A stretch of 64,000 nucleotides of DNA, taken from NCBI RefSeq assembly GCF_011305995.1, contig NZ_CP049910.1:4774001-4838000 (forward strand). The letters are read 5' to 3'. The notes below the pieces were generated by a model. It saw only the letters and a program-made list of their open reading frames with translations. It was not told the origin of the DNA and searched no databases. Source of the stretch: Diaphorobacter sp. HDW4A (GTDB lineage: Bacteria; Pseudomonadota; Gammaproteobacteria; Burkholderiales; Burkholderiaceae_C). The position numbers and the translations under genes are program-made. Numbering within the stretch: the first letter of the stretch is position 1; each line of letters opens with the position of its first letter. Positions 5,424 through 63,766 of this stretch are shown here, piece after piece.

Positions 5424-5575
5424 AGCCACCCAAAGCGCCCAATCAAGGTCACCCGTTACCAGAGCGCTCCGATGATCAAGGGATCTATTGATGCGCTGAT
5501 GCGCATGCAGGAGGCAGAGTTGAAGGATGCTCGGTACGAGCGCGGCGCCCTGAGGTGGAGTCACCCTATGCAACT
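5424..5575 (+). pseudogene. C-terminal fragment of an MFS transporter
   Basis: Read in frame, this stretch gives SHPKRPIKVTRYQSAPMIKG then SIDALMRMQEAELKDARYE. The intact MFS transporter at 51452-52732 ends QPKRPLKTKATRCPSTPMIT then GSLDTMIRIQEESQRARY. Similarity continues past the stop of the intact gene at the DNA level (CCCTATGCAAC.TCTTCTACA in both). Only about 50 codons remain, and the 370-codon membrane domain is absent. This is a dispersed duplicate fragment. Confidence 0.75.
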
Positions 5576-6015
5576 TCTTCTACAGTGAGGCCCCGACCGT
5601 TAAATTGCACGGTGTCCCCTGCTTGGGCACCTCCTATCGCGTCGAAGATCGGCGCCATCGTCGAAATGCCCATGAGCTCACGCCCATGGCAGGTGAACTT
5701 GCTCGTTGACACTGCGATCACATAATAGCGGCCAGACAGTTTTACGACAGCGCCTTCGTCAACTGTCGACTTAGGGCCGAAATCAATCATCTTGAGCTTA
5801 TCGAGTTTATCGGCGTAGTCATGGAGTGTGTCATCGAGCGCTTCAGCGAAGTCAGCTGCAACTTCGGCCTGAGCCTGCTCGTCGTTCTCGATCGGTTCGG
5901 TCGCATCAAGCCGGGCGGTCGAGAGATAATTCAGATAGTTGTCGCGAGCGCTATGCAAAGCTGACGTCTGCAGTGAAAGCATAGTTTCACGGATGTCCTC
6001 TTTATTCCAGTTCAT
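5566..6015 (-). CDS. Hypothetical protein with a GreA/GreB C-terminal-like domain
   Basis: With the ATG at 6015 (preceded by AAAGAGG at a good distance; ATG at 6018 is the alternative) the product has 149 residues and begins MNWNKEDIRETMLSLQTSAL. The N-terminal half is acidic and probably helical. The C-terminal half, with GAVVKLSGRYYVIAVSTS, ISTMAPIFDAIGGAQAGDTV and FNGRGLTVEEV, resembles the FKBP-like C-terminal domain of GreA/GreB and Rnk proteins. It lacks the N-terminal coiled coil that enters RNA polymerase's secondary channel, so a transcript-cleavage role should not be assumed. It follows the gene at 6104-6676 by 88 bp and probably shares its transcript. Confidence 0.65.
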   Translation of the reverse strand: MNWNKEDIRETMLSLQTSALHSARDNYLNYLSTARLDATEPIENDEQAQAEVAADFAEALDDTLHDYADKLDKLKMIDFGPKSTVDEGAVVKLSGRYYVIAVSTSKFTCHGRELMGISTMAPIFDAIGGAQAGDTVQFNGRGLTVEEVA

Positions 6016-6103
6016 CATCACCTCTTTTGTTTCGATAGTACAAATGTCCAGTAGGCTGGTCTGTGACCGCCTCGGAGGGTTGCCTCTACGCTCGCCGACC
6101 CCG

Positions 6104-6676
6104 CTATTCATAGCTGATGAAGTCATCTCCCTGATAGGGGACCCTAATCAGCCGAGAATCTCGGATGATGCTAGTGACGAGCCAGACATATGACTGCTCG
6201 GCCGTATCGAAGCCGAGGATGCTGAAGGTTCCACCGAAAGGGCATGCTGGGAAGTCTGGAAAGCCCTCTCGCAGAACGAAACGCTCGGGCTCCCGCTCAA
6301 ACTCGTTCTTGTAGACTTTGCGCAGTCCGTGCTTACTCGGCGCATCCTGGTCACCTGCCGGCGCTGCTTCCCGATGCTCTACAAGCCGTTCAGAAAGTTC
6401 GCGGTCACACATTTCGTCGAACACGTCGAACGCATCGATCAGCAAGCCTTTATGGTTGGTCGCTGGATCGGTGATCGCGTAGATGTTGGAGGAATCTCCG
6501 ACATCATCTCCGCTTTCAAGACGCAACGCCGCGTCGACGCGAATGGTGCGCGAATCGAGGATAGATCCTAGTTCGAGATCAACGAGATTGCCGTTCTGGA
6601 CGCGGTATTCGCGGTCATAGCCTTTGGCGATGAAGGATTGGACGGCTTCTAGAACATCGTTCACGTGGGATGTCAT
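6104..6676 (-). CDS. Hypothetical two-part protein; N-terminal half like small 'phosphoribosylpyrophosphate synthetase' family
   Basis: The chosen start is ATG at 6676, which follows GAAGGGG. An in-frame start at 6709 has no ribosome site. The product has 190 residues. Residues 1-95 (VNDVLEAVQSFIAKGYDREY ... SSNIYAITDPATNHKGLLID) match the pattern of a small family usually annotated, doubtfully, as phosphoribosylpyrophosphate synthetase; it has none of the PRPP-binding motifs. Residues 110-190 (LRKVYKNEFEREPERFVLRE, GTFSILGFDTAEQSYVWLVT, RVPYQGDDFISYE) form a second conserved-looking part I cannot name. It heads a two-gene unit with the GreA-like gene. Confidence 0.65.
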   Translation of the reverse strand: MTSHVNDVLEAVQSFIAKGYDREYRVQNGNLVDLELGSILDSRTIRVDAALRLESGDDVGDSSNIYAITDPATNHKGLLIDAFDVFDEMCDRELSERLVEHREAAPAGDQDAPSKHGLRKVYKNEFEREPERFVLREGFPDFPACPFGGTFSILGFDTAEQSYVWLVTSIIRDSRLIRVPYQGDDFISYE

Positions 6677-6770
6677 GGATGCCCCTTCGCCTCGGGTCGA
6701 GTCGAACAAACTCCCGCACTAGGCGCGTTACCAACAAGGAGATGATGAAGAAAAACGCGACATGCGGTAT

Positions 6771-7739
6771 TCATAGCCACTTGGCCTTTTTGAAACGAGC
6801 GAACAGGAAAACGCTAGACACCGCCATAAGCCCGAGCACGACGAAGTATCCATAGGCCGTATTCAGTCCCAGCATGTTCTTGAAGTTCATGCCGTATATT
6901 GCAGCGATCGTCCCCGGGACTGCCAGTATTGCCGCCCAAGCCGCGAGCTGGCGGGTGATCACACCAATCCTTTGCGCCTCCAGAAGGCTGCTGAACTCAA
7001 AGACCGTGGTCAGGCCCTGAAGGAGGCCGTCGACCATGGACTGCACACGATCGACGTGATCGGCGACATCGTTGAAGAACGGCCTCACTTCGGCACTGAT
7101 GCAGGGAAAATGCCCCCGAACGAGCTTCCTGACAAGTTCAGCCATAGCTCCGAGCGTGCGTTGGAAACGCGTGAGTTCAGATCTCAGTAAAAATATGCGG
7201 GCGACTTCTTCTCGTCCGAGAAAGTCGTCTAACGACCGTCTCTCCATTGCTAGAACGTCATCCTCGATCATTTCGAAGATGGGCAAATACTGGTCAACAA
7301 TACGGTGCAAGATCGCGTGCAGCACGTAGTCGACACCCTTTCCTAAAAGTGCCGGTGAAGCCTCGAGCTGCACCCGAAGGTTGCCAAGGGCTCCAGCGTT
7401 GCCATGACGCACGCTGATGAGATGATTGTGGCCGGTGAAGATCGCCGTTTTTCCATAGCAAATCTGGTCACCGATCAGCTCAGCGGTCTGAGCGACGACG
7501 TATAGCTCATCGTTGTAGGCTTCGAGCTTGGGCGGGCAAAGCGGGTGAATCGCGTTATCGATTGCCAACGGATGCAGGTGATAAGTAGCTTGGAGCGTGT
7601 GAAGTTCGTCGGCGGTGGGCTCGTGAAGTGCGATCCAGCAGAAGCCCGAGCGACTCTTATCCAGCTGGACACGCTCGTTGATCGCGATCTCTCGGATTCG
7701 CTTGCCTTCGTTGTAATAGTGGGCGGCGATGACGCTCAT
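6771..7739 (-). CDS. corA: CorA-family magnesium/divalent cation transporter
   Basis: The 322-residue protein has a large acidic N-terminal cytoplasmic domain, a long helix region (residues about 150-260) and two C-terminal membrane segments. The first ends in YGMNF, the CorA signature that forms the selectivity loop. The second ends KKAKWL. The family transports Mg2+, Co2+, Ni2+ or, in the ZntB branch, Zn2+. The loop after GMN (KNMLGLNTAYG) departs from the usual MPEL, pointing to the wider CorA/ZntB group. ATG at 7739 overlaps the stop of the GST gene by four bases (ATGA), so the two are translationally coupled. Confidence 0.92.
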   Translation of the reverse strand: MSVIAAHYYNEGKRIREIAINERVQLDKSRSGFCWIALHEPTADELHTLQATYHLHPLAIDNAIHPLCPPKLEAYNDELYVVAQTAELIGDQICYGKTAIFTGHNHLISVRHGNAGALGNLRVQLEASPALLGKGVDYVLHAILHRIVDQYLPIFEMIEDDVLAMERRSLDDFLGREEVARIFLLRSELTRFQRTLGAMAELVRKLVRGHFPCISAEVRPFFNDVADHVDRVQSMVDGLLQGLTTVFEFSSLLEAQRIGVITRQLAAWAAILAVPGTIAAIYGMNFKNMLGLNTAYGYFVVLGLMAVSSVFLFARFKKAKWL

Positions 7740-8440
7740 GCCGACCTCGCAGGGATGTGCAGGCCACGCTGAACTGCTGGTTTAGATAGCCCGCGTCCAA
7801 GCCATGCTTGGATATTCGAATAATTGCTGAGACTAAGGATATCCCCAGCTGCGTACGATTCAACCAGCGCATTTACCCAGCCGAGGGTCGCGATGTCCGC
7901 GATCGAATAATCACCGACCATCCAGTTGCGGCCTTCCAGCTGGCGATCCAAGACCCCCAGGAGACGCTTGGATTCGTCGACAAAGCACTGCCGAGGCCGC
8001 TTGTCCTCAAAGTCTTTGCCGCCATATCGCAGGAAGAAACCGAGCTGACCGAACATCGGCCCGATGGCCGACATCTGGAAGAACACCCAGGCCAGGGTCT
8101 TGTAACGGTTGGCGCGCGCATTCGGAATGAGCTGGCCCGTCTTGTCGGCGAGATAGAGAAGGATCGCACCGGATTCCCATACCGCAATGGGCCTACCGTC
8201 AGGGCCCGCCGGATCGATGATCGCCGGTATGCGGCCGTTTGGGTTCAGTGACACGAACGCTGGGTCCTTCGACTCGTTCTTTGAAATATCAATCAGATGG
8301 GGCTCATACGCCAAGCCAGTTTCCTCCAGCATGATCGACACCTTGACACCATTGGGTGTGGGAGCTGCATAAAGTTGCAGACGATCAGGATCTGATGCAG
8401 GCCAGCGCCGCGTGATCGGAAAGGATGAGAGGTCTGGCAT
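7736..8440 (-). CDS. Glutathione S-transferase of the YfcG/YghU type
   Basis: The 234-residue product from ATG at 8440 has an N-terminal thioredoxin fold with TPNGVKVSIMLEETGL. In this group a Thr/Asn replaces the catalytic Ser/Tyr, and the proteins act as glutathione-dependent disulfide oxidoreductases. NPNGRIPAIID carries the cis-proline and WESGAILLYLADKTG binds the glutathione gamma-glutamyl part. The C-terminal helical domain includes WMVGDYSIADIATLGWVNA. It is coupled to corA through an ATGA overlap and lies about 125 bp after msrA on the same strand. A frame extending to 8482 exists, but family alignment starts at MPDLSSFPITRRW. Confidence 0.9.
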   Translation of the reverse strand: MPDLSSFPITRRWPASDPDRLQLYAAPTPNGVKVSIMLEETGLAYEPHLIDISKNESKDPAFVSLNPNGRIPAIIDPAGPDGRPIAVWESGAILLYLADKTGQLIPNARANRYKTLAWVFFQMSAIGPMFGQLGFFLRYGGKDFEDKRPRQCFVDESKRLLGVLDRQLEGRNWMVGDYSIADIATLGWVNALVESYAAGDILSLSNYSNIQAWLGRGLSKPAVQRGLHIPARSA

Positions 8441-8565
8441 GGTTCTGGGATCCTGGTGCTGCTGCAGCGGCGGACTCTGCAATGCCCCACCTCATTGAGG
8501 CTGGGTTCGATAACCGCGTCGTTGGACGATACGGTCACGAAGAGTGATGTAGTTCTGGCTGCAGG

Positions 8566-9081
8566 TTATATAGCGTCAGGATTTTTGCGCTTCGGAAGGA
8601 TCCAGTCGGCACGTGGAAAGTGACAGGTATAGCCGCCAGGACGCTTCTCCAGATAGTCCTGGTGCTCCGGCTCGGCCTCCCAGAAATCGCCGGCCGGCTC
8701 CACCTCGGTGACCACTTTTCCATTCCAAAGCCCGGACGCATCCACATCGGCGATCGTCTCCTCGGCGACGTGCTTCTGCTCCACCCCGAGGTAATAGATG
8801 GCAGACCGGTAGGAGAGACCACGATCATTGCCTTGGCGGTTCTTCGTCGTCGGATCGTGGATCTGGAAAAAAAATTCCAAGATGCTCCGGTAACTCGTCA
8901 ACTCCGAGGCGAAGACAATTTCGATCGCCTCGGCATGCGTGCCGTGGTTGCGATAAGTGGCGTTCGGAACATCGCCCCCGGTGTAGCCCACACGAGTTGA
9001 GATGACGCCGGGTAACTTGCGGATTAGGTCCTGCATTCCCCAGAAACAACCGCCGGCTAGGATGGCTTTTTCGTGATTCAT
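8566..9081 (-). CDS. msrA: Peptide methionine-S-sulfoxide reductase MsrA
   Basis: The canonical form starts [20 protein letters not shown] with the catalytic Cys in GCFWG. It then has [41 protein letters not shown] (the RQ.ND.G motif) and YRSAIYY, plus the C-terminal [20 protein letters not shown]. It reduces the S epimer of protein methionine sulfoxide. The start ATG at 9081 overlaps the last base of the msrB stop codon (TGATG), so MsrA and MsrB are made together. A 60-bp relic of its C-terminal coding sequence sits at 11899-11963. Confidence 0.97.
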
Positions 9082-9524
9082 CAAACGCTCTCCACTTGGT
9101 CGAGATAGGCACCATACCCCTCGACGGCCATCACTTCGCGAGGAATAAAGCGCAAAGATGCAGAGTTGATGCAATAGCGCAGGCCTCCTCGGTCTGCGGG
9201 GCCGTCGTTGAACACGTGGCCTAGGTGGCTGTCGCCATGCGTCGAACGAACTTCGGTGCGCACCATGCCATGCTCGGTGTCGCGTAATTCGTTCACATTC
9301 GCCGGAACGATCGGCTTGGTAAAGCTTGGCCAGCCAGTACCCGAATTGAACTTGTCCGCTGAGGCGAACAGCGGCTCTCCCGACACTATGTCGACATAAA
9401 TGCCAGGCTCCTTGTTGTCGTTGTACTCTCCCGAGAAGGGCCTTTCGGTGCCCGACTTCTGGGTAACCCGACGTTGCTCGGGGGTCAGGCGGTCAAGTGC
9501 TGCTTGCGACTTTTCAAACTTCAT
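9081..9524 (-). CDS. msrB: Peptide methionine-R-sulfoxide reductase MsrB
   Basis: The 147-residue protein carries the SelR-domain signatures [45 protein letters not shown] and the catalytic Cys in [11 protein letters not shown]. The two CxxC zinc ligands of zinc-type MsrB proteins are absent ([15 protein letters not shown]), so this is a zinc-free form. It reduces the R epimer of methionine sulfoxide, complementing the coupled msrA. ATG at 9524 follows AGGAGAAC, a good ribosome site. It is the first gene of the likely unit msrB-msrA-GST-corA and faces an RclR-like regulator across 540 bp. Confidence 0.97.
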
Positions 9525-10066
9525 GAAGTTCTCCTATGCTTAATTAGGGGCTAGGCACACTACGTTCAGCGCATCTTCTTAGTCATCAGAAGTGCCCTCC
9601 CTGAATCACCGGAAACACCCAATACTCATCTGGCGATAGGCGTAGACTGTCTATACGGCAAGAGAACAGTGAAAGCGGTAATCCTCAAGGACTATTGCTG
9701 CAGAACTTGCCTATCGCATCAGCTGCGAGCTTTTGGTTTACAAGACTCAGAACAAGTCCGCCTTTCACGCGGCAAAACGCATTTGTTGATGAAATGAAGC
9801 CTGCGGGATGAGCCAGATCAGTTTTGCGGACGTGGAGCAGAAAGCAGTCGCAGTGTCTCTAGACCATTGTTTCTTGGGTGTCCTCAGAGGTCAACAGGCC
9901 AATGTGTTTCATCGTCCGGCAAAAGAAGCCAAGAAACCTGAAGTGAGCCGCCCGTCTGAGACAGGCTCCGGTCAGAGCGGAACAGCCCGTCGCGGAGGCG
10001 CTGGCGTTTGCGTACCATCGGGATTGCGAGACGCCGCTCGACTTAAATTCACGTGGAGGCAGAAGC
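9525..10066. promoter_or_regulatory. Divergent control region between msrB and an AraC/RclR-like regulator
   Basis: This gap separates the minus-strand msrBA set from the plus-strand regulator, the usual layout for an AraC-type activator and its target. No protein is supportable inside it, although frames are open. I could not mark a definite -35/-10 pair or a repeated regulator site by eye. Confidence 0.4.
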
Positions 10067-11023
10067 TTGAACGAACGACCGTTACTACGAATATCGCCAG
10101 GGGATCTCGAAGGTTTGCTTGGTACTCTCGATGTCAGTTTCGTTGCCCTTACGGAATGCGTGGTGAGCATGGGGTACAGCCTGGAACTGGGCGGTATGAA
10201 CGCGCCTGGGATCCATTACAACGTCGTTGGTACTGGTCGGGCCGTGTTTGGCAATCGCGACCCTATACCGTTGATGCCCCACACGTTGATCATTGTGCCG
10301 CCCAATTCATCGTTTCGAATTGAGGTCGAAGGCAGCATGGGCTTCACAGCTCTGCGCTCCGTCAAGAAGCAGCCGCAGATGACCTCGTCGAGCACCATAC
10401 GCAGATTCTCCGCAGGAGATGGAGATCCTTCCCTAATACTGGTGTGCGGTTACTTTTACGCTACCTACGGCGCCTGCGCCGACCTCTTCGCTGGCTTGAC
10501 GGAGCCCATCTTCGAACAGTTCGACGTTGACGATCACGTCGACACGAAACTCCAGACAGCACTCAGCGAACTCGTCGCACAGGAAGTTGGCAGCGGTGCG
10601 ATGAGTGCGGCTTTGCTAAAACAAGTCATTGTGCTGCTTTTACGGAGGTCGCTCGTCTCCATGAACGCCTGGGTGGAGCGTTTCTCGGTGCTCAAAGATC
10701 CTCTGGTCGCAAAAGCTTTTGCCGAAATGGCCATGCGTCCTGCCGATGATCATTCACTGCAAAGCCTCGCCCACACTGCCTGCCTCAGTCGTTCTGCTTT
10801 CGCCGCTCGATTTACTGAGGCTATCGGAAAGGCTCCGATGCAGGTACTGCGGGAGCTCCGACTGCGGCAAGCGATGTTCCAGCTGAAAGGCAGCGGCCTC
10901 GCCATCGATCTCGTCGCTCGCAATGCTGGATATGCCAGCCGGAGCAGTTTTACAAAGGCATTTCGAAGGACCTATGGAATAGAGCCCTCCGCAGTCCGTC
11001 GCACCGATGCGACGGCAGTTTAG
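10067..11023 (+). CDS. AraC-family regulator with Cupin_6 sensor domain, RclR-like
   Basis: The start is TTG at 10067, placed by GGAGG ten bases upstream; family similarity begins there (LLRISPGDLEGLLGTLDV). Residues 1-190 form a Cupin_6-type sensor. The last 110 residues hold two helix-turn-helix motifs (SLQSLAHTACLSRSAFAARF and IDLVARNAGYASRSSFTKAF). Cys31 (ALTECVVS) and Cys127 (LILVCGYF) align by eye with Cys21 and Cys89 of E. coli RclR, the pair required for sensing hypochlorous acid. It also has Cys137. It is divergent from msrBA and is the likely regulator of that set. A second member is at 44581-45567. Confidence 0.88.
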   Translation: MNERPLLRISPGDLEGLLGTLDVSFVALTECVVSMGYSLELGGMNAPGIHYNVVGTGRAVFGNRDPIPLMPHTLIIVPPNSSFRIEVEGSMGFTALRSVKKQPQMTSSSTIRRFSAGDGDPSLILVCGYFYATYGACADLFAGLTEPIFEQFDVDDHVDTKLQTALSELVAQEVGSGAMSAALLKQVIVLLLRRSLVSMNAWVERFSVLKDPLVAKAFAEMAMRPADDHSLQSLAHTACLSRSAFAARFTEAIGKAPMQVLRELRLRQAMFQLKGSGLAIDLVARNAGYASRSSFTKAFRRTYGIEPSAVRRTDATAV

Positions 11024-11049: not shown

Positions 11050-11553
11050 CTACGCCCGATCACAGGCTTGCTCCATATCGCGCATATGCTTACACAGAGA
11101 AACCGCTTCATCCAATAGGTCCCCCGCGGAAACAACGGACGTCACCACTTCCGACCCGCGTTCAATTGTCTTGTGCACAGGACAGCGTGAGACGACTTCG
11201 AGGAGCTTCTGTTGCTGCTCGTCGCTCAGGCTTCCATCAAGCCGTATTTCTACGCCAAAGGAGTCCGTCGCGTCTAGTCCATTCCGGCGATGCGTGATCT
11301 TCACCCGAATCCGCTCCAGTGGCCACTTCTTGCGGGAAGCATACAAACGCATAGTCATCACCGAACAGGTTCCGAGGGCTGCGCTCAACAAATCGTACGG
11401 GTTGGGACCGGACCCAAGCCCCCCTATGCCTATTGGTTCATCCACGATGAATGTGGAGGAGCCAGCCCGCACTTTCAGCTGAAACGGGCCATTCTTGGTC
11501 TCGTCGATGACGATGGACTCCCCCACCACATCGGGTCGCTGATTCGTAGCCAT
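11050..11553 (-). CDS. OsmC/Ohr-family protein
   Basis: The 167-residue product starts at ATG 11553, nine bases after GGAGGGG; a GTG at 11562 is also in frame. It shows the OsmC fold markers IGGLGSGPNPYDLLSAALGT followed by Cys (CSVMTMRLYA) and, later, VVSRCPVHKTIERG with the second conserved Cys. Family members reduce organic hydroperoxides or act in osmotic/oxidative stress using these cysteines. This YhfA-like subtype with CPVH is less well studied. It is convergent with the AraC regulator at 10067, with 26 bp between stops. A relative is fused to a hydrolase at 57045-58277. Confidence 0.9.
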   Translation of the reverse strand: MATNQRPDVVGESIVIDETKNGPFQLKVRAGSSTFIVDEPIGIGGLGSGPNPYDLLSAALGTCSVMTMRLYASRKKWPLERIRVKITHRRNGLDATDSFGVEIRLDGSLSDEQQQKLLEVVSRCPVHKTIERGSEVVTSVVSAGDLLDEAVSLCKHMRDMEQACDRA

Positions 11554-11898
11554 ATGAAACACCCCTCCAGGCGCCTGAAGTCTCTACTGGTCTAACGATC
11601 GCCAGAAACTGCCGGACGCGGTTACCAGATTGGAGAGCCTTTTCATGCTCACCCCCTACGACGTGGGCGACGCACCCGTAAGGTGCACCCGTGCCAGCAA
11701 CTGAGAATGTACCCCCACCAAGACGTCACTGAATCCGGAAGAAGCGTCCGGCCCGCAGCGCCGAGTGGGGCCCTTCGCGTCGACCGCACGAGTCGCCCCC
11801 CCCCACCGCATTGATCGACCTGAGCAGTTTTCCCAGCAATCGATTTCTGCTTGGGATGTACCCAGCCCGGCCGGGTGGAGTGCCGGGTCGAGCCCATC

Positions 11899-12399: not shown

Positions 12400-13401
12400 A
12401 TGAAGAAGCTTTTGTTTGTCGTCGATCCGCTGGACCAGTTCAAGGTCTACAAGGACACCACTTTCTCAATCATGCGTGAGGCCCAGTGGCGCGGCTACCT
12501 CATAGCGGCATGCCTGCCGCAAGACATTCAGTGGAAGTCAGGCGGTTTTGTCATGGCCACCGTGCAGCAAATCAGCCTGACTGGATCCCAGCCCGGCTGG
12601 TACCGTGTCCACAACACGATGCGAATGGCCCTAAAAGACTTTGACGCTGTCCTCATGCGCAAGGACCCACCATTCAACGCGGAGTACATCTACGCCACCC
12701 ACCTCCTCGAACAAGCTGAACGGGAGGACGGCAACGTAGTGAACAGACCGCGGGCACTTCGCGACCATCCGGAGAAGCTCGCAATCATGGAGTTTCCTGA
12801 GCTCGTACCGCCAACGCTGGTTACACGCAATGCGGCGTCCGTGCGGGACTTCCACGCGGAGCATGGCGACATCATTCTCAAGCCGCTTGATGGAATGGGT
12901 GGCAAAGGCATCTTCCGTGTCGGAAAAGACGCGCTGAATCTCGGCGTCATCATCGAGACGCTAAACAAGGATGGTGCCGAAACCATCATGGTCCAGCGCT
13001 TTGTGCCGCAGATCGTCGACGGCGACAAGCGCATCCTCATAATTAACGGCGAGCCCGTGCCCTTTGTCTTGGCCCGCATTCCGCAGGGCACTGAAGTGCG
13101 CGGCAATTTGGCTGTTGGGGGCAAAGGTGTGGCGCAGCCCTTGACGCCGCGCAATCGTGAAATCGCCGAAACTATCGGACGAGTGCTTGCGCCCCGCGGA
13201 CTCCTACTCATTGGGCTTGATGTAATTGGTGATTCCGTCACTGAGATCAATGTCACCAGTCCTACCGGCTTTCAAGAAATCACCGACCAAACCGGCTTCA
13301 ACGTCCCGGCGCTCTTCGTTGACGCATTGGAGCGGACCACACGTACAACGAACGATGAACCCCTGCAGCGCCCGCAGTGGTCCACGGCGCACATCAATTA
13401 A
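12400..13401 (+). CDS. gshB: Glutathione synthetase
   Basis: The 333-residue ATP-grasp enzyme joins gamma-glutamylcysteine and glycine. The N-terminal substrate domain starts MKKLLFVVDPLDQFKVYKDT, with the family's VMDPI..I.P.KDT pattern. Then come MRKDPPFNAEYIYATHLLEQ, the central ATP-grasp part HGDIILKPLDGMGGKGIFRV, RFVPQIVDGDKRILIINGEP, and the C-terminal metal-binding EINVTSPTGFQEI. Length and motif order match proteobacterial GshB. Glutathione made here would feed grxC and the GST. No gshA is in the window. A burdened promoter region with decayed DNA precedes it, so its expression signals may be recent. Confidence 0.96.
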   Translation: MKKLLFVVDPLDQFKVYKDTTFSIMREAQWRGYLIAACLPQDIQWKSGGFVMATVQQISLTGSQPGWYRVHNTMRMALKDFDAVLMRKDPPFNAEYIYATHLLEQAEREDGNVVNRPRALRDHPEKLAIMEFPELVPPTLVTRNAASVRDFHAEHGDIILKPLDGMGGKGIFRVGKDALNLGVIIETLNKDGAETIMVQRFVPQIVDGDKRILIINGEPVPFVLARIPQGTEVRGNLAVGGKGVAQPLTPRNREIAETIGRVLAPRGLLLIGLDVIGDSVTEINVTSPTGFQEITDQTGFNVPALFVDALERTTRTTNDEPLQRPQWSTAHIN

Positions 13402-18116: not shown

Positions 18117-18880
18117 GCTGACCACCCAGCTACCGTCGGTACTCAGCGGGAATCGGATCCACGCTCAGTTTCAAACTAGTGTCGCGCTCTACCTGCCCGA
18201 CTCGCTCCGCACTGAGCAACAGCTCAATTGCCAACGTAGGCAGACGCTTGCAGAAAAAAACTTGGCTGCTACGTCTATACCGATGAAGCTTCACCCTCTC
18301 TAAAGGGCTCTTCAATCGAAGTCTCATTGAACGCACGCCCTCCGTGCTGCCGGCGGCGTGCAACAAAGGACACGTCGCAACTTGACTGTCTCGAAAGGCG
18401 CCAAGGTGGCCGCCCGCGCCCATTAACAGCATTTGCATACGGAGTCTCCATTCAACTTGCTGCCGACACGATGGCCCTCGGCGGGTGCTTAGCCTCGTGC
18501 CTCTTGGCAAGCAAGAAGAGAGAACTCGCCGCTCCGGTAGGAAGCGTTTTCCGCACCACTCCGAAATAGGGTTCGGGAGCAAGCGCTGGGGCACTGTACG
18601 GCGCTCGGCGTGTTTGATAGTCCGGAATACATTTCCTATCGTCGCCGCGAGGATGGTCCGGTACTCAGAGGCTTTCTCCAGATGGAAAACCCTCAACGGA
18701 CTACTAAGGTCAAGCTGCTCAAACTTGGAGGGGCCGGGGTAGACATTCAAGCAAAGGCAGCGCGGACGTTAAAGACATCGTCAAAGTAGGCACCTCGTCT
18801 GTCGGAGGCGGAGCACATTCCAGCGAACGCCGACGTCCGCTCCATCTTCATTGGCGACCTGACGCCCGCCAACATGCATA
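18117..18880. repeat. Upstream flank of cbpA, duplicated in degenerate form at 35526-36080
   Basis: No gene is convincing here. The segment matches 35526-36080 in the same order: TACTCAGCGGGAATCGGATC ..., TCCATTCAACTTG.CTGCCGAC ..., AGTCCGGAATACAT.TCCTA and CCAGCGAACGC near the end. A plus-strand peptide stretch, FDSPEYISYRRREDGPVLRG, is partly kept in both copies (DSPEYISYRRR), so an unidentified protein may once have been coded here. Frameshifts and stops now break every frame. Confidence 0.7.
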
Positions 18881-20937: not shown

Positions 20938-21375
20938 ATGAGCCTTCCTCTTCCGCATGCCCACCCCGGCTTGACCATTGGTGATCTGGCCAAGGCGGCC
21001 GGTGTCAATGTAGAGACCATACGGTTCTACCAACGCAAGGAGCTGATGCCCGAGCCAGAACGGCCCCAGGGCAGCATTCGGCGATATGACCAGAATGACC
21101 TATCGCGATTGCATTTCATCAAGACTGCGAAGCGGCTGGGGTTCAGCCTGGATGAGACCGCGCAGTTGCTGCAACTCGACGATGGTGCGAGCTGCGCTCA
21201 AGCCCGTACACACGCAGAGTCCAAGCTCGCCGAAGTTCAACTCAAGCTTGCAGACCTGCACCGAATGGAAGCCGTACTCTCTGAACTGATCGATCTCTGC
21301 AGTTCTGGGAGAGGCAAAGTCCGTTGCCCGCTGATTGCGGCAATGGAGAGGCAGTCGCCTCCGCTACAGATTTGA
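20938..21375 (+). CDS. merR: Mercury-responsive regulator MerR
   Basis: The 145-residue product has the winged helix-turn-helix ([20 protein letters not shown]) and a long dimerisation helix. The three Hg-binding cysteines are all present: Cys86, Cys121 and Cys130 (GASCAQ, DLCSSG, VRCPLI). It represses merTP without mercury and activates them with it. Its stop codon lies within 12 bases of the IS66 transposase stop on the other strand. The last residues ([10 protein letters not shown]) could therefore come from the junction and not from the original gene; the functional core is complete. Confidence 0.94.
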
Positions 21376-22953: not shown

Positions 22954-22974
22954 GCACCGGTCTGCGCTTCAGAG

Positions 22975-23307
22975 TCAGACCACGGTGATGACACCACCGT
23001 TGCCAAGGCGCTGCCAGGGCAGGCCCAGCACCAGCGCATCGAACTGGGCTCGGGTGAGCGAGGCGGTGCTTGCCGCATCACGCGGCCAGACGAACTTGCC
23101 GCTGTTGAGGCGACGCGCTGCCAGCCACACACCGATGCCGTCGTGCACCAGCACCTTCATGCGGTTGGCGCGTCGATTGGCGAACAGGTAGGCGTGGTGC
23201 GGGCGCGCTGCGCCGAAGACCGACACCACGCGAGCCAGCGCCGTCTCGGTGCCCGATCTCATGTCCAGCGGCTCAGTGGCCAGCCACAGCGCATCAACCC
23301 GGATCAC
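22975..23307 (-). CDS. tnpB: IS66-family accessory protein TnpB
   Basis: The 110-residue protein contains PLDMRSGTETALARVVSVFG, HHAYLFANRRANRMKVLVHD and LPWQRLGNGG, the IS66 Orf2 pattern. It starts with GTG at 23307 overlapping the tnpA stop (GTGA), as ATG does in the other copies. It is needed for IS66 transposition, but its biochemical role is unclear. Confidence 0.9.
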   Translation of the reverse strand: MIRVDALWLATEPLDMRSGTETALARVVSVFGAARPHHAYLFANRRANRMKVLVHDGIGVWLAARRLNSGKFVWPRDAASTASLTRAQFDALVLGLPWQRLGNGGVITVV

Positions 23308-24168: not shown

Positions 24169-25437
24169 TCAACACTCCATGTCTCGCGCGAGGCGCAGCC
24201 CACTAAATTGCCACCTGGTCGCGGGCGGGAAGAAATTGCGATAGGTGAGGCGCGTGTGGCCGCGTGGGGTGGCCACGCTTCCACCGCGGAGAACAACTTG
24301 GCCGACCATGAACTTCCCGTTGTACTCACCGATAGCTCCAGGCCACGGCCTGAATCCTGGATACGGATCAAAAGAAGAGCGCGTCCACTGCCAGACATGA
24401 CCTGTGAGCTGTCGAATCTCCGGCAACCGTGCCGCTGATTCCCATTCAGCCTCTGTAGGCAGTCGCGCACCACTCCAAAGGGCAAAAGCAGCAGCCTCAT
24501 AGAAACTAAGCTGACTCACTGGAGCTCCCAGATCCATCGGTTGGACTCCGGTCAGCCCGAACACCTGCCACTCCTCGGCCGGCGCGCAGGAGTCTCTGGG
24601 CGCAATCCAGTAGGCGGGCACTTGCCAGCTATTGGACTGAACCAACGCCCAGCCCTCGGACAGCCACAAGGCGGGAGTTTTATAGCCGCCGTCGGCGATG
24701 AAGTCGACGTACTCTGAGCAAGTGACCAAGCGGTCTGTGATTTGAAACGGCGCCAGCCAGCAACGATGTTGCGGGGTTTCGTTGTCGAACGCAAAGGTTC
24801 CGCCTGCGTGGCCGACTCCCACCAACCCGCTCGGTCCATCTAGCCATTTAACCTGTGAAGGAGCATGAAGGCGAAGCGGCCCTTCTCCGGAGGCTCGAAG
24901 TGCCGGGAGCATCGGATTGCAAGAGAGCAGGTGTAAGGCATCCGCAACAATGAGTTCTTGATGCTGCTGCTCATGCTGCAGACCAAGAACAATCAGCGGC
25001 CCCACAGACTTGAGGCTTTCGTTGTCGGCGTCCTCGATGAGCCGAAGGACTGCGGCATCGACGTGCTCACGATACCGGTGCACTTCATACAGTGCTGGGC
25101 GTGTGAGCAGCCCTCGCTGGGCCCTCGGATGGCGACTTCCCAGGGACTCGTAGTACGAATTGAACAGGTGCAGATAAGACGCGTTGAAGGGCTCGCATGA
25201 AGTGTGCGGCAACAGGACTACGGCCTCGAAGAACCACGTCGTATGCGCCAGGTGCCACTTCGTCGGACTCGCATCTGCCATTGACTGTACGCACTGGTCC
25301 TCCACGCTCAGGGGACTCGCTGCAGCCAGACTGGCTGCGCGAACCTCTGCAAAATGGTTCGCAAGAGCTGCGCGATCTGTCGTGTCAGGAATGAGAGGAC
25401 TCGCGGGAGACGACGCGCGAAGTAGATTCCTGGTCAT
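24169..25437 (-). CDS. egtB: Ergothioneine biosynthesis protein EgtB (iron-dependent sulfoxide synthase)
   Basis: The start ATG 25437 matches the start kept in the broken copy at 44041 (MTRNL.R). The 422-residue product has an N-terminal DinB-like helical domain carrying the iron ligands in SPTKWHLAHTTWFFE and the H..QH.E motif HEQQHQELIVADALH. A C-terminal formylglycine-generating-enzyme-like (C-type lectin) domain includes RLPTEAEWESAAR, HVWQWTRSSFDPYPGF and YRNFFPPATRWQFSGLRLA. It joins a cysteine-derived thiol to hercynine using O2. It is 230 bp downstream of egtD on the same strand. EgtC and EgtE genes are not in the window. Confidence 0.95.
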   Translation of the reverse strand: MTRNLLRASSPASPLIPDTTDRAALANHFAEVRAASLAAASPLSVEDQCVQSMADASPTKWHLAHTTWFFEAVVLLPHTSCEPFNASYLHLFNSYYESLGSRHPRAQRGLLTRPALYEVHRYREHVDAAVLRLIEDADNESLKSVGPLIVLGLQHEQQHQELIVADALHLLSCNPMLPALRASGEGPLRLHAPSQVKWLDGPSGLVGVGHAGGTFAFDNETPQHRCWLAPFQITDRLVTCSEYVDFIADGGYKTPALWLSEGWALVQSNSWQVPAYWIAPRDSCAPAEEWQVFGLTGVQPMDLGAPVSQLSFYEAAAFALWSGARLPTEAEWESAARLPEIRQLTGHVWQWTRSSFDPYPGFRPWPGAIGEYNGKFMVGQVVLRGGSVATPRGHTRLTYRNFFPPATRWQFSGLRLARDMEC

Positions 25438-25667
25438 GAGCCCGGGGTCCTTTTTCATGAGCATGCCCGTCGTTCAGAGCAGCCACGTGGTTGAGAAAAC
25501 ATCGACAGAGCGCCAGGCGAACCGCCTCTCGTTCACTATTCTTACCGCGCATTGGCCCCGGTCGTACTGGGCAGGCCCCTCATGTGAGCCGCTGACTTCG
25601 TCGTCGCTGGGGGGCAGAGGGAGCGAGTTAGCCGTCGCTGAAGCACCGAAACTAGGCGGCGCACGTA

Positions 25668-26669
25668 TCAGTCGGCGCCGTATTCTTGAGCGCTGTCGAT
25701 CTGGACACGTTGCGCGGAGAGAACTGCAAAGTATCCGTCCGGGTCAGTCCAAAAGCCGGTCGTGTTCCATCCTCCCGCCCTCAGCAGCAGGCGAATGTCC
25801 CGGACGGTGTACTTGTAGCTGTTCTCTGTATGAATGGTTTCGCCCTCCCGCATGGAGAAGCTGCAATCGGCTACGCGAAACTGCACGTCGTATCGCGCGC
25901 GGAGATGCATCTCAATCCGGGATAGCCCCTCATTCCACCGCACCTCGTGCTTGAAGGCAGACACCGGGATGTCGCCGACGAGTTCCCGGTTGATGCGGTG
26001 AATCAGATTGAGGTTGAACCTGGCAGTGACCCCCTGCGGGTCGTCATATGCAGGCAGGAGGATTGCCTCGTCCTTCAGCAGGTCGACTCCCAGGAGCAGA
26101 GTGGAATCAGGACCAAGGGAGTCGCCAAACGTCCGAAGGAGATCGACAGCGGCCGCTTCGCTCAGGTTGCCGAGGGTAGAGCCCGGGAAAAAGCCAACGC
26201 CACCTCGCTGCAGGACCGTAAGCGGCAGCTCCATCGGACGCAGAAAGTCCCCCTCGACAGGCCGCATGGGAATATGCGGGAATTGGGCCTGTAGAGACGC
26301 AATGGATTCGCGCAGGAACTCTCCGGAGATGTCGATGGCAATGTACTCCGAGACCAAGGCATGACCAAGCAGCACGGAAGTCTTGGTGGCGGAGCCCGCA
26401 CCGAACTCAACGAGCACCCTGTTGTGCCCCAGGAGTGGCGCGATCTCGCGGATGTACGTCGACAGAATCGTACGCTCGCAACGAGTTGGGTAGTACTGCG
26501 GCAACCGAGTGATATCCTCGAACAGCTTTGAGCCTTCCTGGTCGTAGAACCAGCGCGGAGGAATGGCTTTGTTAAGCCTTCCCAATCCACTAAGTACATC
26601 AAGCAGAAACCCGGGACAGGACTTGGCTGCGGGCGCTACTGTGAGCGCAGAGAAGGAGGGGTTTCTCAT
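25668..26669 (-). CDS. egtD: L-histidine N-alpha-methyltransferase EgtD
   Basis: The 333-residue SAM-dependent enzyme trimethylates histidine to hercynine, the first step of ergothioneine synthesis. Family features: LGRLNKAIPPRWFYDQEGSK near the start, EFGAGSATKTSVLL (SAM site), YIAIDISGEFL, GFFPGSTLGNLS and LLGVDLLKDEAILLPAYDD. The family N-terminus fits ATG 26669. The frame stays open for 70 more codons upstream to 26879, but that part is unlike EgtD. It likely forms a two-gene unit with egtB. Confidence 0.95.
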   Translation of the reverse strand: MRNPSFSALTVAPAAKSCPGFLLDVLSGLGRLNKAIPPRWFYDQEGSKLFEDITRLPQYYPTRCERTILSTYIREIAPLLGHNRVLVEFGAGSATKTSVLLGHALVSEYIAIDISGEFLRESIASLQAQFPHIPMRPVEGDFLRPMELPLTVLQRGGVGFFPGSTLGNLSEAAAVDLLRTFGDSLGPDSTLLLGVDLLKDEAILLPAYDDPQGVTARFNLNLIHRINRELVGDIPVSAFKHEVRWNEGLSRIEMHLRARYDVQFRVADCSFSMREGETIHTENSYKYTVRDIRLLLRAGGWNTTGFWTDPDGYFAVLSAQRVQIDSAQEYGAD

Positions 26670-26911
26670 CAAATGGAAAGGCAAATACTTTCGCACTCCA
26701 ACATCATCCAGTCGATGCGTCTGAAGGTGCGCGAATGGCTCCATAAGCGGAGGAAAGGCGAAGGCTACAGCCACCGTGTCGCCATGCCATTGTTTTCCGA
26801 TGACCCCACCCGGGTCAACCTGCCAATGCGTTCGGTCGTCCGACAAAATGAGCCAGGAAACCTGAAGTGGGTCGTTCAATGGATGCGCGGCTGATCAAGA
26901 TATTCAAGTTG
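26670..26911. other. Leader region of egtD, open but unidentified
   Basis: The minus-strand frame of egtD continues without stop for 70 codons here, giving a peptide with no motif I know. A strong start for it is missing, so it is more likely leader DNA or a relic than an N-terminal extension. Confidence 0.35.
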
Positions 26912-26958: not shown

Positions 26959-26996
26959 GGGGTCGTCTCAGAAAACGGAAAGAATCGTACGCTAAG
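26959..26996 (+). repeat. Left 38-bp terminal inverted repeat of the Tn3-family element
   Basis: It starts GGGGTCGTCTCAGAAAACGG and ends CGTACGCTAAG. The tnpA stop codon lies inside it. It matches the right end at 35381-35418 with only a few differences. Confidence 0.95.
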
Positions 26997-38024: not shown

Positions 38025-38192
38025 TTCTCACTCTCCAGTTCAATTTCGACCTTGATAGGTGTCTATTGAACCGGGTGAAGTCCAAAATCTTGAGCGCGAA
38101 ATCAAAGAAGTCGAGAGGAAAACCTCTCCACCCCCAAGTCCTCTCACTAGCAAACACCTATGTCGGACATCTCCGGGGCCACTAAAGGAGGC

Positions 38193-44041: not shown

Positions 44042-44148
44042 GGGAGTCTAGTGCAACTCGCGATGCGTGCGTACGATGGACTGCTGCGTGGAGCCAGTAC
44101 TACGGAGTCACGAACGTCGTCTTTCCGACCTGAAGAAGGAGCTCACAC

Positions 44149-44470
44149 ATGGTGACCAGAGGCTTTACCGGCCGCGGCGTTGACCCCATGACCGCTGCGG
44201 GGCTGCCTCCAGGACATCACGTTACTCAGGGCTTTCCTGTCCTGTCGGCCACTGCGACTCCAGATGTTGCTTTGAGCGAGTGGGAGTTCACGCTGAAGGA
44301 GGGGTCGCGGCGCATCGCCACCTAGTCATGGCTCGAATTCAATCAGGTCCCACGTACTGTTTGGAACGGCGATATCCACTGCGTCACCTCGTGGTCGAAG
44401 TTCGGCACAACTTGGGAAGGAGTATCTATTGATGACATATTGGTCGCTGCGGGCGTTGGGGAACTCAGCG
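44149..44470 (+). pseudogene. Broken copy of the molybdopterin oxidoreductase at 62836-63444
   Basis: The plus strand reads MVTRGFTGRGVD, GFPVLSATATPDVALSEWEF, then a TAG after SRRIAT. It continues with FNQVPRTVWNGDIHCVTSWS and KFGTTWEGVSIDDILVAAGV. The intact paralogue has MVTRNFTGRRPT, VALPRTVWQGDIHCVTTWSK and FDTRWEGVTIDDLLADAGI. The Moco cysteine region (HCVT) is kept but lies behind the stop, and the C-terminal half is missing. Confidence 0.85.
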
Positions 44471-44580: not shown

Positions 44581-45567
44581 TCAACATGTTCGGCTCTCGC
44601 TCGGGTCCTCAGTCTGAAATGCGGGATACGGAGCAATTCCCGACCGGAGTAGCGCTTGGCACCGGTATTCCCTCGGGTCCATGCCATATGCCTTGCGGAA
44701 CGCGCGGATGAAACCACTGTTGTTTGCGTAACCAGCGGCTTGGCCAATCTGCCCAATGGAGACGCCTGTGACCCGGAGCTGCTGGGCGGCTTGTCGCATG
44801 CGCAAATCTCTGAGCACACTCATGGGCGCTCGGCCAACCAATTCGAAGAAGCGCGCCATGAAGGTTGATCGGCTTAGGCACGCAGTCCTTGCCAGGCTGT
44901 CCACAGTGTGCCTAGCCCCGGGCTTTGCCGTCATTTCGGCGAATGCCTTGGAGATCCTATGGTCCCTCAGAATCGCAAATCGCTCGACCCAGGGGTGAGG
45001 CGAAGTCAACGAGCGACGCAGAAGCAGCACCAAGGTCTGCTTCATGAGCAATGAGGTCATTGCGACACTGCCGGGTTGCTTTCCCTGTAGCTCGACGAGC
45101 GCATGACTCAACTTGGCTGGGAGCTCGTCACCATCCGAAAATCGCTCCACAATTGGCGTGGATAGGCCGCCAAACATGTCAACAACGTCCCCAAATGCGG
45201 CGTGGAAATGGCCACACAGAACACGCGCGCTTCCCGCCAGCATGGCCCGGTTTTCTCGCACCATTCGAAATTGAGAATGTTCGCTGCTGATAGGCGGGAC
45301 GACTACAAGGGTATGTTGGGAAATCGCGATCGACAGGCCATTTGAAGTTGTGAGGGACCCAGTCCCCCACATTCCGTAGTACAGGCGAGTCATACCGTCG
45401 TTCCCTGGCTCGAACCGTCGGTCCCCCTTCAATGTGCATTCTTCAAGAATGACATGGCGTACTTCGAGCGTGCCGACGAGGGTATCCAAATCGGCCGGTG
45501 AGATGCGCAAGATAGGGCTATCGACCTTAGCCACGGAGAAGCTTGGCTCCCCACTCTCGGTGCTCAT
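44581..45567 (-). CDS. AraC-family regulator with Cupin_6 sensor domain, RclR-like (second copy)
   Basis: From ATG 45567 the 328-residue protein has a Cupin_6-type sensor (PILRISPADLDTLVGTLEVR) and a C-terminal AraC domain (VDSLARTACLSRSTFMARFF, IGQIGQAAGYANNSGFIRAF). Cys44 (VILEECTLKG) and Cys118 (ARVLCGHFHA) correspond to Cys31 and Cys127 of the paralogue at 10067. They also correspond by eye to the redox cysteines of RclR. An in-frame extension to 45777 lacks family features. It may have controlled the genes around it, many of which are now broken. An IS66 insertion lies about 390 bp upstream. Confidence 0.88.
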   Translation of the reverse strand: MSTESGEPSFSVAKVDSPILRISPADLDTLVGTLEVRHVILEECTLKGDRRFEPGNDGMTRLYYGMWGTGSLTTSNGLSIAISQHTLVVVPPISSEHSQFRMVRENRAMLAGSARVLCGHFHAAFGDVVDMFGGLSTPIVERFSDGDELPAKLSHALVELQGKQPGSVAMTSLLMKQTLVLLLRRSLTSPHPWVERFAILRDHRISKAFAEMTAKPGARHTVDSLARTACLSRSTFMARFFELVGRAPMSVLRDLRMRQAAQQLRVTGVSIGQIGQAAGYANNSGFIRAFRKAYGMDPREYRCQALLRSGIAPYPAFQTEDPSESRTC

Positions 45568-45946
45568 CAGCTCAGACTGGGTGAAGTCGTTGCTTTGCGC
45601 CACAGTATCTCCTACCGTGCGACTCGGTCCGAACGTATTCCTCCCTGACTTTCGCCGCTTCGACCCAAGCTTGGGCAACTGTGCGTAGCGGCTTCGTCCG
45701 ACCAGAAAGACGGCATGCGGCATTGCTTCCCGCAGGCGTCGTGCGAGAGCCGTCGAACGACCAGTCGACCCCTCCACCCTCCATGGTTGCTGTCACGTAA
45801 ATAGCGCCATCCAAAATACAGACCTCCTTATGCAAATCCCAAACGCGCTTTCGGAGAAGGCGCTAACTCTCGGGGACAGGTGGCTGCGCCCCGAGTTCCA
45901 GCACGGGATGTCGCTGGCGCCAGACACTTTTCCGGCCGCTTCACCG
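45568..45946. other. Upstream region of the AraC gene; short unidentified frame
   Basis: A plus-strand frame from about 45831 (MQIPNALSEKALTLGDRWLR ...) runs into the IS66 insertion point. Across the excised element it would continue for a few more codons (PRFPMPRTSTINT) before a stop. No family is recognised, so it is recorded only as a possibility. Confidence 0.35.
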
Positions 45947-45954
45947 GATGCTCC
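45947..45954. repeat. 8-bp target duplication GATGCTCC, left copy
   Basis: It directly precedes the IS66 end and is repeated exactly at 48544-48551. Confidence 0.95.
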
Positions 45955-62047: not shown

Positions 62048-62836
62048 TCAGGCGCCCCCGTACCGCTCCGTCTTAATGTGGGCTGCGGGGACGCCGGCAT
62101 CGACCAGTCCGTTAGCAACGGCTTCGACGAACCGATTGGCGCCGCATACATAAACATGGCGAGGCGTGTGGACCCAGCGGGCAAGGACGTTTGCGATGGC
62201 TGCAGCATCAAGCCGCCGCCCCAGGTCGGTCGGCCGCGGTGGTGGCTCGCGCGTGGTCACCGCTATGAAGGTGAAGTCGGGCCGTGCTGCTTCGAGTTCA
62301 AGCAACTCGGCATGAAAGGGTAGGTCGGCCGGAGTGCGTGCGGAGCAGACCAACAGCACGGGCATAGGCACCGGTGGCAGTTCGGCCATGGCCCCCGTCG
62401 GCGCCACTACCTCTGCGGGGTCCGCGGCCCATGCGCGCACCATTGCCATCAACGGCGCGATGCCCGAGCCGCCCGCTATCAACAACAACGGCCCGCCATC
62501 GGCGGGTCCCCAGACGAAATGTCCACCGAGCGGCCCACGCACTTCGATACTCTCGCCCACCTCCGCGATGTCATGGAAAAAAGGGGACACCTCGCCATCC
62601 TGGAGCTTCTCGATGATGATCTCGACGTTGTCAGCGCGAGGCGCCGATGCAATGGAATAGCTGCGTTGCGCGGCATAACCATCGGGCGCGGTCAGTCGCA
62701 CATCGATGTGTTGACCCGCACGGCGCGACGCCAGTGCCGACACATCGAGAAAGAAACTCTTGATGCGCGGTGTGAGCTGCGAGATGCGCTCGATCTTCGC
62801 GTTGCGCCACGGACCTTGATGCTCGTTGGGCAACAT
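62048..62836 (-). CDS. FAD/NAD(P)-binding oxidoreductase (ferredoxin-reductase type) partner of a molybdoenzyme
   Basis: The 262-residue protein starts at ATG 62836, overlapping the stop of the preceding gene by one base (TGATG). It has the FNR-type FAD motif AAQRSYSIASAPRAD (RxYS), a GEVSPFFHDIAEVGESIEVR segment, the NAD-binding LLLIAGGSGIAPLMAMVRAW, PVLLVCSARTPADLPFHAEL and HVYVCGANRFVEAVANGLVD. There is no iron-sulfur domain. It probably passes electrons from NAD(P)H to the molybdoenzyme encoded just before it. Confidence 0.92.
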   Translation of the reverse strand: MLPNEHQGPWRNAKIERISQLTPRIKSFFLDVSALASRRAGQHIDVRLTAPDGYAAQRSYSIASAPRADNVEIIIEKLQDGEVSPFFHDIAEVGESIEVRGPLGGHFVWGPADGGPLLLIAGGSGIAPLMAMVRAWAADPAEVVAPTGAMAELPPVPMPVLLVCSARTPADLPFHAELLELEAARPDFTFIAVTTREPPPRPTDLGRRLDAAAIANVLARWVHTPRHVYVCGANRFVEAVANGLVDAGVPAAHIKTERYGGA

Positions 62837-63444
62837 CAAGAATCGTCCGAATAACGTTGTTGCCGCCAAGGATCGCCGTACATGTGATATCCGCGCAGCT
62901 CCCAGAATCCGGCTTCATCGCGCGCGGTGAATTTGAGACCCTTGATCCACTTCGCGCTCTTCCAGAAGTACAGGTGCGGCACCAGCAAGCGGGCCGGGCC
63001 GCCATGTTCGGGCGCCAATGGCTGGCCGTCGAAATGAGTCGCTACCATGGCGCGGCCGCCGAGCAAATCGGCAACCGGCACGTTGGTGTCGTAGTCGTCT
63101 AGCGACAGCGCCAGTAGCCAGGGCGTGGGAGCTGCAATGCCGGCGTCGGCAAGCAGGTCGTCGATGGTCACACCTTCCCAGCGTGTGTCGAACTTCGACC
63201 AGGTCGTGACGCAATGGATATCACCTTGCCACACGGTGCGCGGAAGCGCCACGAACTCGTCCCAGCTCCAGCTTTTCATGGGCCGCGGGCCATTGCTCAG
63301 CGTGAATCGCCAAGAAGCCATGTCGATGCGAGGCGTCGGCCCTTTTGAGAGCACCGGAAAGCCTTCGGTTTCGAACTGGCCTGGCGGCAAGCGGTTGGCA
63401 ACGGCTGCCGTGGGCCTTCGCCCGGTGAAATTGCGTGTGACCAT
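62836..63444 (-). CDS. Cytoplasmic sulfite-oxidase-fold molybdopterin oxidoreductase
   Basis: From ATG 63444 the 202-residue product (MVTRNFTGRRPT...) has no Tat or Sec signal. The Moco-binding cysteine is probably Cys78 in VWQGDIHCVTTWSKFDTRWE. Other family parts are TIDDLLADAGI, RAMVATHFDGQPLAPEHGGP (the ..G.PL...HG.P loop), RLLVPHLYFWKSAKWIKGLK and GFWELRGYHMYGDPWRQQRY. The fold is that of MsrP/YedY and sulfite oxidases. The substrate is unknown; sulfite or methionine sulfoxide are candidates. It is coupled to its likely reductase. A broken paralogue lies at 44149. Confidence 0.92.
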   Translation of the reverse strand: MVTRNFTGRRPTAAVANRLPPGQFETEGFPVLSKGPTPRIDMASWRFTLSNGPRPMKSWSWDEFVALPRTVWQGDIHCVTTWSKFDTRWEGVTIDDLLADAGIAAPTPWLLALSLDDYDTNVPVADLLGGRAMVATHFDGQPLAPEHGGPARLLVPHLYFWKSAKWIKGLKFTARDEAGFWELRGYHMYGDPWRQQRYSDDS

Positions 63445-63766
63445 GTTGAGGACTCCTGCGTCGTGCTGCTTAAGGACAAGGCTACGTTCTTTGCCCAATA
63501 TTGCGTGGCTAATTGGTCCGTTGTGTCATTGAGGGGCCCGCGCCTTGCCCGGAGCGCTGGACCCGCGCCTAGTTTGGCCGCTCAGTAAGTCGCGCGACAT
63601 AGTCGGCCAAGATCACACAGTCTCAAGGGTCAGCGAAGCCTACATCAACTCGATCGTATATAGGGCTATCCGCTCTGGAATGTGACGGTAATCAACTATA
63701 GGGGTGCTGGTGCTACCGATAGTCCGACTTTTTGCACCCTTCGTCCTAACCTTTGGAGTGCCTAGC
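63445..63766. other. Intergenic region upstream of the molybdoenzyme gene
   Basis: No gene is seen. It should contain the promoters of the molybdoenzyme pair and of the plus-strand frame at 63767. Confidence 0.4.

Follow-up and report, generated by a model that had tools for sequence, protein, structure and literature searches.

Two AraC-family regulators and a divergent msrB operon

The window analysed here, a 64,000-base stretch of the Diaphorobacter sp. HDW4A genome (contig NZ_CP049910.1, positions 4,774,001 to 4,838,000), encodes AraC1 and AraC2, newly found members of a known regulator family on an oxidant-defence island. AraC1 (10067..11023, plus strand) is a protein of 318 amino acids with a Cupin_6 sensor half, and its frame is open from a TTG start that is preceded by GGAGG. 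AraC2 (44581..45567, minus strand) has 328 amino acids, also in an open frame, and is 43% identical to AraC1 over 309 alignment columns. Pfam places HTH_18 and HTH_AraC at the C-terminus of both proteins, and the Cupin_6 model (PF12852) matches AraC1 with 35.6 bits against a cut-off of 26.7. For AraC2 Pfam lists only the HTH models and no Cupin_6; that it too has a cupin half is inferred from how it aligns with AraC1. A search of the genome gave 12 matches, of which only AraC1 and AraC2 cover almost the full length; none of the remaining 10 starts before residue 147.

AraC1 is divergent from msrB (9081..9524, minus strand), the first gene of a head-to-tail series that continues on the same strand with msrA (8566..9081), whose start codon overlaps the msrB stop, a glutathione S-transferase (GST) gene (7736..8482), and a corA-like transporter gene (6771..7739) that shares 4 bases with the GST gene. 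The gaps between these four genes measure about 0, 83 and -4 bases, and the four are close enough for one transcript, together with the two small overlapping genes next in line (5566..6709, minus strand), which have no assigned function and whose relatives follow corA on the plasmids opened. A RidA gene, a glutaredoxin gene, a second msrA and argS come next, after 171 to 769 bases.

The divergent layout recurs in four loci of named genomes (L016, L017, L019 and pOS401, which is L020). The operon itself varies: in A. soli only 25% of corA is matched and no RidA or glutaredoxin match is listed, and Hydrogenophaga has an alcohol-dehydrogenase gene between msrA and the GST gene. The A. soli locus (L016) matches the window in 14 genes, 13 of them at 99-100% identity. 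Its exceptions are gshB, 82% identical over 66% of its length, and the partly covered corA, and this divergence suggests recombination or deletion inside the island.

The msrB-AraC1 intergenic region (9525..10066, 542 bases) was aligned in five sequences, from the window, A. soli (identical to the window), Hydrogenophaga, pOS401 and Diaphorobacter. These make four distinct sequences, and the MsrB proteins of the four distinct loci differ from that of the window by 7-12%. Against a background of 52% invariant columns over the whole region, a block on the plus strand at 9625..9651 (CTCATCTGGCGATAGGCGTAGACTGTC), a candidate operator or promoter element, has 21 of its 27 columns invariant, and a second putative element (9794..9822, plus strand) has 17-18 of every 20; stretches by the AraC1 start are conserved as well as these two blocks. 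Between 9500 and 10100 there are one promoter-like site (mean of 0.3 in shuffles) and two terminator-like sites (mean of 0.5). We infer that AraC1 controls the msrB operon, which in our judgement is probable.

The conserved blocks were also scanned, with mismatches allowed, over the window and 16 related loci, where each full block matched only its own intergenic region. The best other partial match, 14 of 16 bases at window position 18430, lies inside an ORF (18130-18750). Between the AraC1 and AraC2 intergenic regions the best match is 12 of 14 bases, their conserved blocks are unlike, and a search for repeats in the two regions, run without a control, gave no convincing operator.

An earlier sequence-only reading had assigned the Cupin_6-AraC layout to both regulators, which Pfam confirms for AraC1 and the alignment to AraC1 suggests for AraC2. 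It had also described msrBA-GST-corA as divergent from AraC1, and this is borne out, with a conserved intergenic region between them. Its further proposal, that the regulators control other stress genes nearby, lacks support: in the sequence scanned the conserved blocks recur at no other island promoter, so an island-wide regulon is unsupported, and in the window the next gene upstream of AraC2 is a transposase gene.

An oxidant-defence island between two IS1071 copies

Two IS1071 copies (C1:4763782-4766694 and C1:4843513-4846425), both on the minus strand and 100% and 99.9% identical to the pOS401 transposase protein, bound an island of about 82 kb (C1:4763782-4846425), and the window lies between them. 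Two near-identical copies in the same orientation flank the cargo as in IS1071 composite elements, from which the island differs in that its cargo is oxidant defence; by its boundaries alone it is a candidate composite. The island holds three of the four msrA genes and two of the three msrB genes of the genome. Apart from the msrB-msrA-GST-corA series with its two small genes, the RidA-family gene, the glutaredoxin gene, the second msrA and argS, the cargo includes an OsmC-family gene adjoining AraC1 (11050..11562, minus strand), the glutathione synthetase gene gshB (12400..13401, plus strand), the ergothioneine synthesis genes egtB and egtD (24169..26879, minus strand), and dnaJ-like, peroxiredoxin-like and azoreductase-like genes. 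An abhydrolase-OsmC fusion, glnS and a sulfite-oxidase-like gene with its reductase complete the list. The surroundings of AraC1 and AraC2 are an oxidant-defence island with mobile boundaries.

Just outside the window are two more methionine sulfoxide reductase genes, a third msrA and the second msrB, and a gene for an FAD disulfide oxidoreductase (L021), which carries the annotation rclA on pOS401. In NCBIfam the L021 protein scores 297 of 740 bits for the RclA model and 513 for an FAD oxidoreductase. The pOS401 annotation as an RclA equivalog was ruled out by 31% identity to E. coli RclA and by scores of 297 and 300 of 740 bits. No match to E. coli RclB or RclC is listed in L020-L022 at E<=1e-8, where RclB is short and could be missed. 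DUF417 and chlorite dismutase were each absent from the Pfam matches of the 50 window ORFs scanned.

Chlorite dismutase neighbourhoods have been described as horizontally spread clusters that tie methionine sulfoxide reductases and quinone-reductase-like enzymes to reactive-chlorine defence (PMC9751292). The island resembles them in having methionine sulfoxide reductases in a horizontally spread defence cluster, and differs in that no chlorite dismutase was recognised among the window ORFs scanned and in its AraC regulators, of which that paper makes no mention. In the open-licence PMC literature, no paper was found that joins IS1071 with methionine sulfoxide reductase, with or without hypochlorite, or that joins a genomic island with rclA and msrP; Cupin_6 appears together with AraC in one unrelated paper.

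AraC2 has an orthologue (82% identity) in a congener (L031), where it is divergent from an MsrP-like/sulfite-oxidase gene and a reductase. With the transposase gene as the next gene upstream, no divergent partner of AraC2 is left in the window. A 34-base block upstream of AraC2 (45807..45840, minus strand) is identical at 31 of 34 positions to the AraC2-MsrP-like intergenic region of L031, and the intergenic region that carries the block is 61% identical overall to its L031 counterpart. A broken piece of an MsrP/sulfite-oxidase-like gene lies beside the AraC2 3' end (44146..44460, plus strand), and a sulfite-oxidase/MsrP-like gene with its flavin reductase is found at 62048..63498 (minus strand). 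The broken piece is 56% identical over 105 residues to the intact copy of the window. The name MsrP was rejected: NCBIfam gives only a sulfite-oxidase-like domain, and the SoxC model scores 41.7 of 420 bits. AraC2 may be a diverged paralogue of AraC1 whose target probably is, or used to be, a sulfite-oxidase/MsrP-like gene, and this partner would have been lost from upstream of AraC2 in this genome. Plasmids gave no near match to the stretch 38000-46000, and searching them with the AraC2 protein gave seven records, all below 60% identity.

Cysteines at the RclR positions

E. coli RclR has been reported to be activated by oxidation of Cys21 and Cys89 (PMC7464077). In several alignments the Cys21 column also holds AraC1 Cys31 (codon 10157..10159, plus strand) and AraC2 Cys44 (45436..45438, minus strand), and the Cys89 column holds AraC1 Cys127, part of a V-C-G motif (10445..10447, plus strand), and AraC2 Cys118 (45214..45216, minus strand); these codon positions are computed, that of Cys31 from the start codon. 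The placement of the four cysteines proposed from the sequence alone is the one that alignment with RclR gives, with all four at equivalent positions. Further cysteines occur at residues 137 and 239 of AraC1 and 230, 303 and 328 of AraC2. In the predicted structure of AraC1 (mean pLDDT 79.4, pTM 0.58), Cys31 lies in strand 21-34 and Cys127 in strand 121-134.

A 53-row alignment of AraC1, AraC2 and RclR proteins shows no variation at either cysteine. In a larger set of 123 rows, made up of AraC1, AraC2, RclR and 120 listed relatives out of 1612 relatives of AraC1, Cys is present in 122 rows in the first column and in all 123 in the second. Judged by these alignments, the match with RclR is not chance, and this positional equivalence keeps thiol sensing plausible, though it does not show it.

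The pair is not confined to these proteins. It was looked for in 38 further Cupin_6-AraC proteins, of which 30 came from 23 of 80 Pseudomonadota genomes and 8 from plasmid records. Cys stands in the Cys89 column of 36 of them and in the Cys21 column of 19. These 19 all carry both cysteines, and 17 members without the first cysteine keep the second. For the 30 genome-derived proteins alone the counts are 28 and 12. In a relative from M. nodulans Met replaces Cys31, and the neighbourhood still contains nitroreductase, CMD, GST and DUF417 genes. Since either side of the deepest split in the tree has proteins with the pair, the pair would be an old or recurrent family feature and not an RclR mark. 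It is common in the family and by itself diagnostic neither of RclR nor of bleach sensing.

Neighbourhoods of the Cupin_6-AraC family

Gene neighbourhoods of up to 8 kb on each side were compared between 30 Cupin_6-AraC loci and 28 control stretches from the same contigs, two of the loci being without a control region. The loci represent 30 of the 35 Cupin_6 matches that 23 of 80 genomes gave at E<=1e-10, mostly the best-scoring ones, so they lean to typical members. The library of defence genes was built from the window, the E. coli rcl genes, pOS401 and three plasmid loci (L033, L036 and L039), and the 30 loci lie outside it. In the same test the AraC1 family itself reached 14 of 15 loci, a count inflated by library self-matches and not taken as evidence.

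Oxidant- or electrophile-defence genes were found in 16 of the 30 loci, which are not independent, several coming from one family of genomes, and in two of the 28 controls (Fisher p=1.6e-4). CMD (AhpD-like) genes were present within 8 kb of 10 of the 30 loci and none of the 28 controls (p=8e-4). Loci with both cysteines had defence genes in 7 of 12 cases, and the rest in 9 of 18 (Fisher p=0.72); for CMD genes alone the counts were 6 of 12 and 4 of 18 (p=0.14). Defence against oxidants or electrophiles therefore seems to be habitual at Cupin_6-AraC loci, and in this small sample the cysteine pair gives no detectable prediction of oxidant context.

The frequency of CMD genes near these loci recalls P. 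aeruginosa RclR-RclX, where an AraC-family oxidant regulator has been described together with a defence gene (PMC7950407, PMC7464077). AhpD-like CMD genes lie near many of the Cupin_6-AraC relatives sampled here, and rclX is itself described as AhpD-like, whereas AraC1 faces msrB; the two systems are likened by description.

At E<=1e-45 relatives of AraC1 were found in five of 399 genomes of the family sample (its own genome included, and one, G003, having the AraC2 type), in one of 369 genomes of the class sample (its own), and in three of 398 genomes of the phylum sample (its own included). A protein search of plasmids at E<=1e-30 found an AraC1 relative in 11 of 72,556 records, with only pOS401 above 60% identity. 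The company of these relatives varies. Within the DNA covered, an msr-type match is present in 6 of 15 AraC1-family loci and absent from nine, the search library including some of these loci. In Mesorhizobium the neighbours of a relative (50% identity) include msrA, msrB and peroxiredoxin-like, OsmC and sulfite-oxidase-like genes, and in L034 and L036 the relatives have CMD, GST, nitroreductase and DUF417 genes nearby.

The msrB-corA stretch matches 358 plasmid records, 110 of them over at least 80% of its length, and 340 of the 358 are 80-90% identical to it at the DNA level. Among the plasmid hosts Klebsiella, Citrobacter, Enterobacter, Pseudomonas, Acinetobacter and Aeromonas come first, and the stretch is widespread on plasmids of Enterobacterales and of the last three genera. 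Publication has already been made of the order msrB-msrA-corA next to blaNDM-1, in an account given without a functional study (PMC12210851), and such plasmid msrB-msrA-GST-corA clusters share their gene order with the operon divergent from AraC1. They differ in what precedes msrB, which is a LysR gene, not an AraC gene, in the three plasmids opened besides pOS401 (L072, L073 and L074). This LysR gene matches 158 plasmid records. In the same three plasmids LysR, MarR, DUF417 and OsmC genes accompany msrB-msrA-GST-corA.

Proposed role of AraC1 and alternatives

We prefer the reading that AraC1 is a local regulator of a mobile msr operon that responds to thiol-reactive oxidants or electrophiles, an explanation to which, taken whole, we give an even chance. 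The cupin-like half of AraC1 would sense, most likely, through the conserved Cys31/Cys127 pair. Its signal would be an oxidant or electrophile that reacts with thiols, such as hypochlorous acid, chloramines, hypothiocyanite or quinone-type compounds. Once one cysteine or both had been oxidised or modified, the AraC-type DNA-binding half would activate the msrB promoter. That the sensor is cysteine-based is, in our judgement, evenly balanced. Hypochlorous acid is one candidate signal, and we judge it unlikely to be the main one. Because both regulators have the matching cysteines and lie on an island rich in oxidation-repair genes, they probably both sense oxidants or similar reactive chemicals.

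The alternative that survives best, unlikely as we consider it, is that AraC1 regulates quinone or aldehyde detoxification as a ligand-binding Cupin_6 protein, with an organic electrophile or metabolite bound in the cupin pocket and cysteines of structural role, and that it was recruited to msr by island shuffling. NADP-dependent zinc-type oxidoreductase genes lie near AraC1 relatives in seven loci (L027, L028, L030, L032, L033, L036 and L037), and in L027 and L028, from two genomes of the same family, the relatives are divergent from this gene and not from msrB. The 17 proteins that keep the second cysteine without the first would also suit a structural role. However, neither cysteine varies among the AraC1, AraC2 and RclR rows, and the locus on the island is made of oxidant-repair, not catabolic, genes.

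A narrower form of the preferred reading, in which AraC1 and AraC2 are strict RclR-like hypochlorite sensors that run an island-wide reactive-chlorine regulon, is improbable. AraC1 shares with E. coli RclR (NF040475) a C-terminal AraC-type HTH, a cupin-like N-terminal half and cysteines in equivalent columns, and RclR is divergent from a stress gene (rclA) as AraC1 is from msrB. RclR is also the best NCBIfam model for both AraC1 and AraC2, and msr, ergothioneine, glutathione and RidA-family genes are all present on the island. But the scores of the two proteins for this model are 77.3 and 80.0 bits against a cut-off of 400, and AraC1 is 22-26% identical to five RclR rows and 34 residues longer, with a neighbouring operon that is not the same. 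In a maximum-likelihood tree of 60 rows with a midpoint root, AraC1 and AraC2 fall in a clade with 100/100 support apart from RclR, which groups with six other proteins carrying both cysteines (97/94). By score and by tree neither AraC1 nor AraC2 is RclR, the island has no RclA equivalog, and no operator was found that the two regulators' intergenic regions share with its other genes. The label of RclR-like, which the sequence-only reading had hung on the cysteines, loses its footing with the wider family alignment: the pair is widespread, spans the deepest tree split and predicts no context. Of that reading the sequence-level observation and the divergent msr operon stand, the surroundings are an oxidant-defence island, and the RclR-type chlorine regulon is an over-interpretation.

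It is similarly improbable that AraC1 is a hitch-hiker controlling itself or a lost gene, with the msr operon under its own or a distant regulator: the LysR gene beside msr on three plasmids, the single plasmid (pOS401) with an AraC1 match above 60% among 358 records with msrB-corA, and the lack of a divergent partner for AraC2 in the window fit this, but across four distinct loci with diverged MsrB proteins the intergenic region can still be aligned and its blocks are well kept.

If AraC1 is a thiol switch as preferred here, an oxidant-repair operon that matches hundreds of plasmid records would have its own mobile sensor in some hosts, and the chemistry of RclR would extend to a second clade. 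A more general possibility, tentative and rather doubtful, is that Cupin_6-AraC regulators are a class of thiol-based oxidant switches, with RclR as one branch, and that AraC1 is a sensor of a second branch captured by the IS1071 island. Were this true, environmental bacteria would gain a transferable methionine-repair regulon with its own sensor. The family survey itself offers a testable generality, namely that defence genes are commoner at Cupin_6-AraC loci than in controls.

Other features of the island

The transmissible locus of stress tolerance (tLST) has ClpK, FtsH and small heat-shock proteins as cargo. The window was considered as such a heat-resistance island and this was ruled out, the candidate ORF (26992-29958) being a Tn3 transposase gene. 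Two large ORFs (637 and 345 amino acids) at 31810-34776, near a Tn3-type transposase and a resolvase, have no Pfam match at E<=1e-4, the ORF at 31810-33723 among them.

The island also has extra arginyl- and glutaminyl-tRNA synthetase-like genes (486-2171 and 58559-60415), and argS accompanies msr genes on pOS401 and on a Comamonas aquatica plasmid as well. Pfam confirms IS66-type elements at 21364-23586 and at 53858-55393 (element 53858-56324). A third IS66-type element (46025-48491) appears from its mirrored ORF lengths to be an inverted twin of 53858-56324, and these two surround a cluster of VTT-rhodanese, TSA-like, MFS and protease-like genes.
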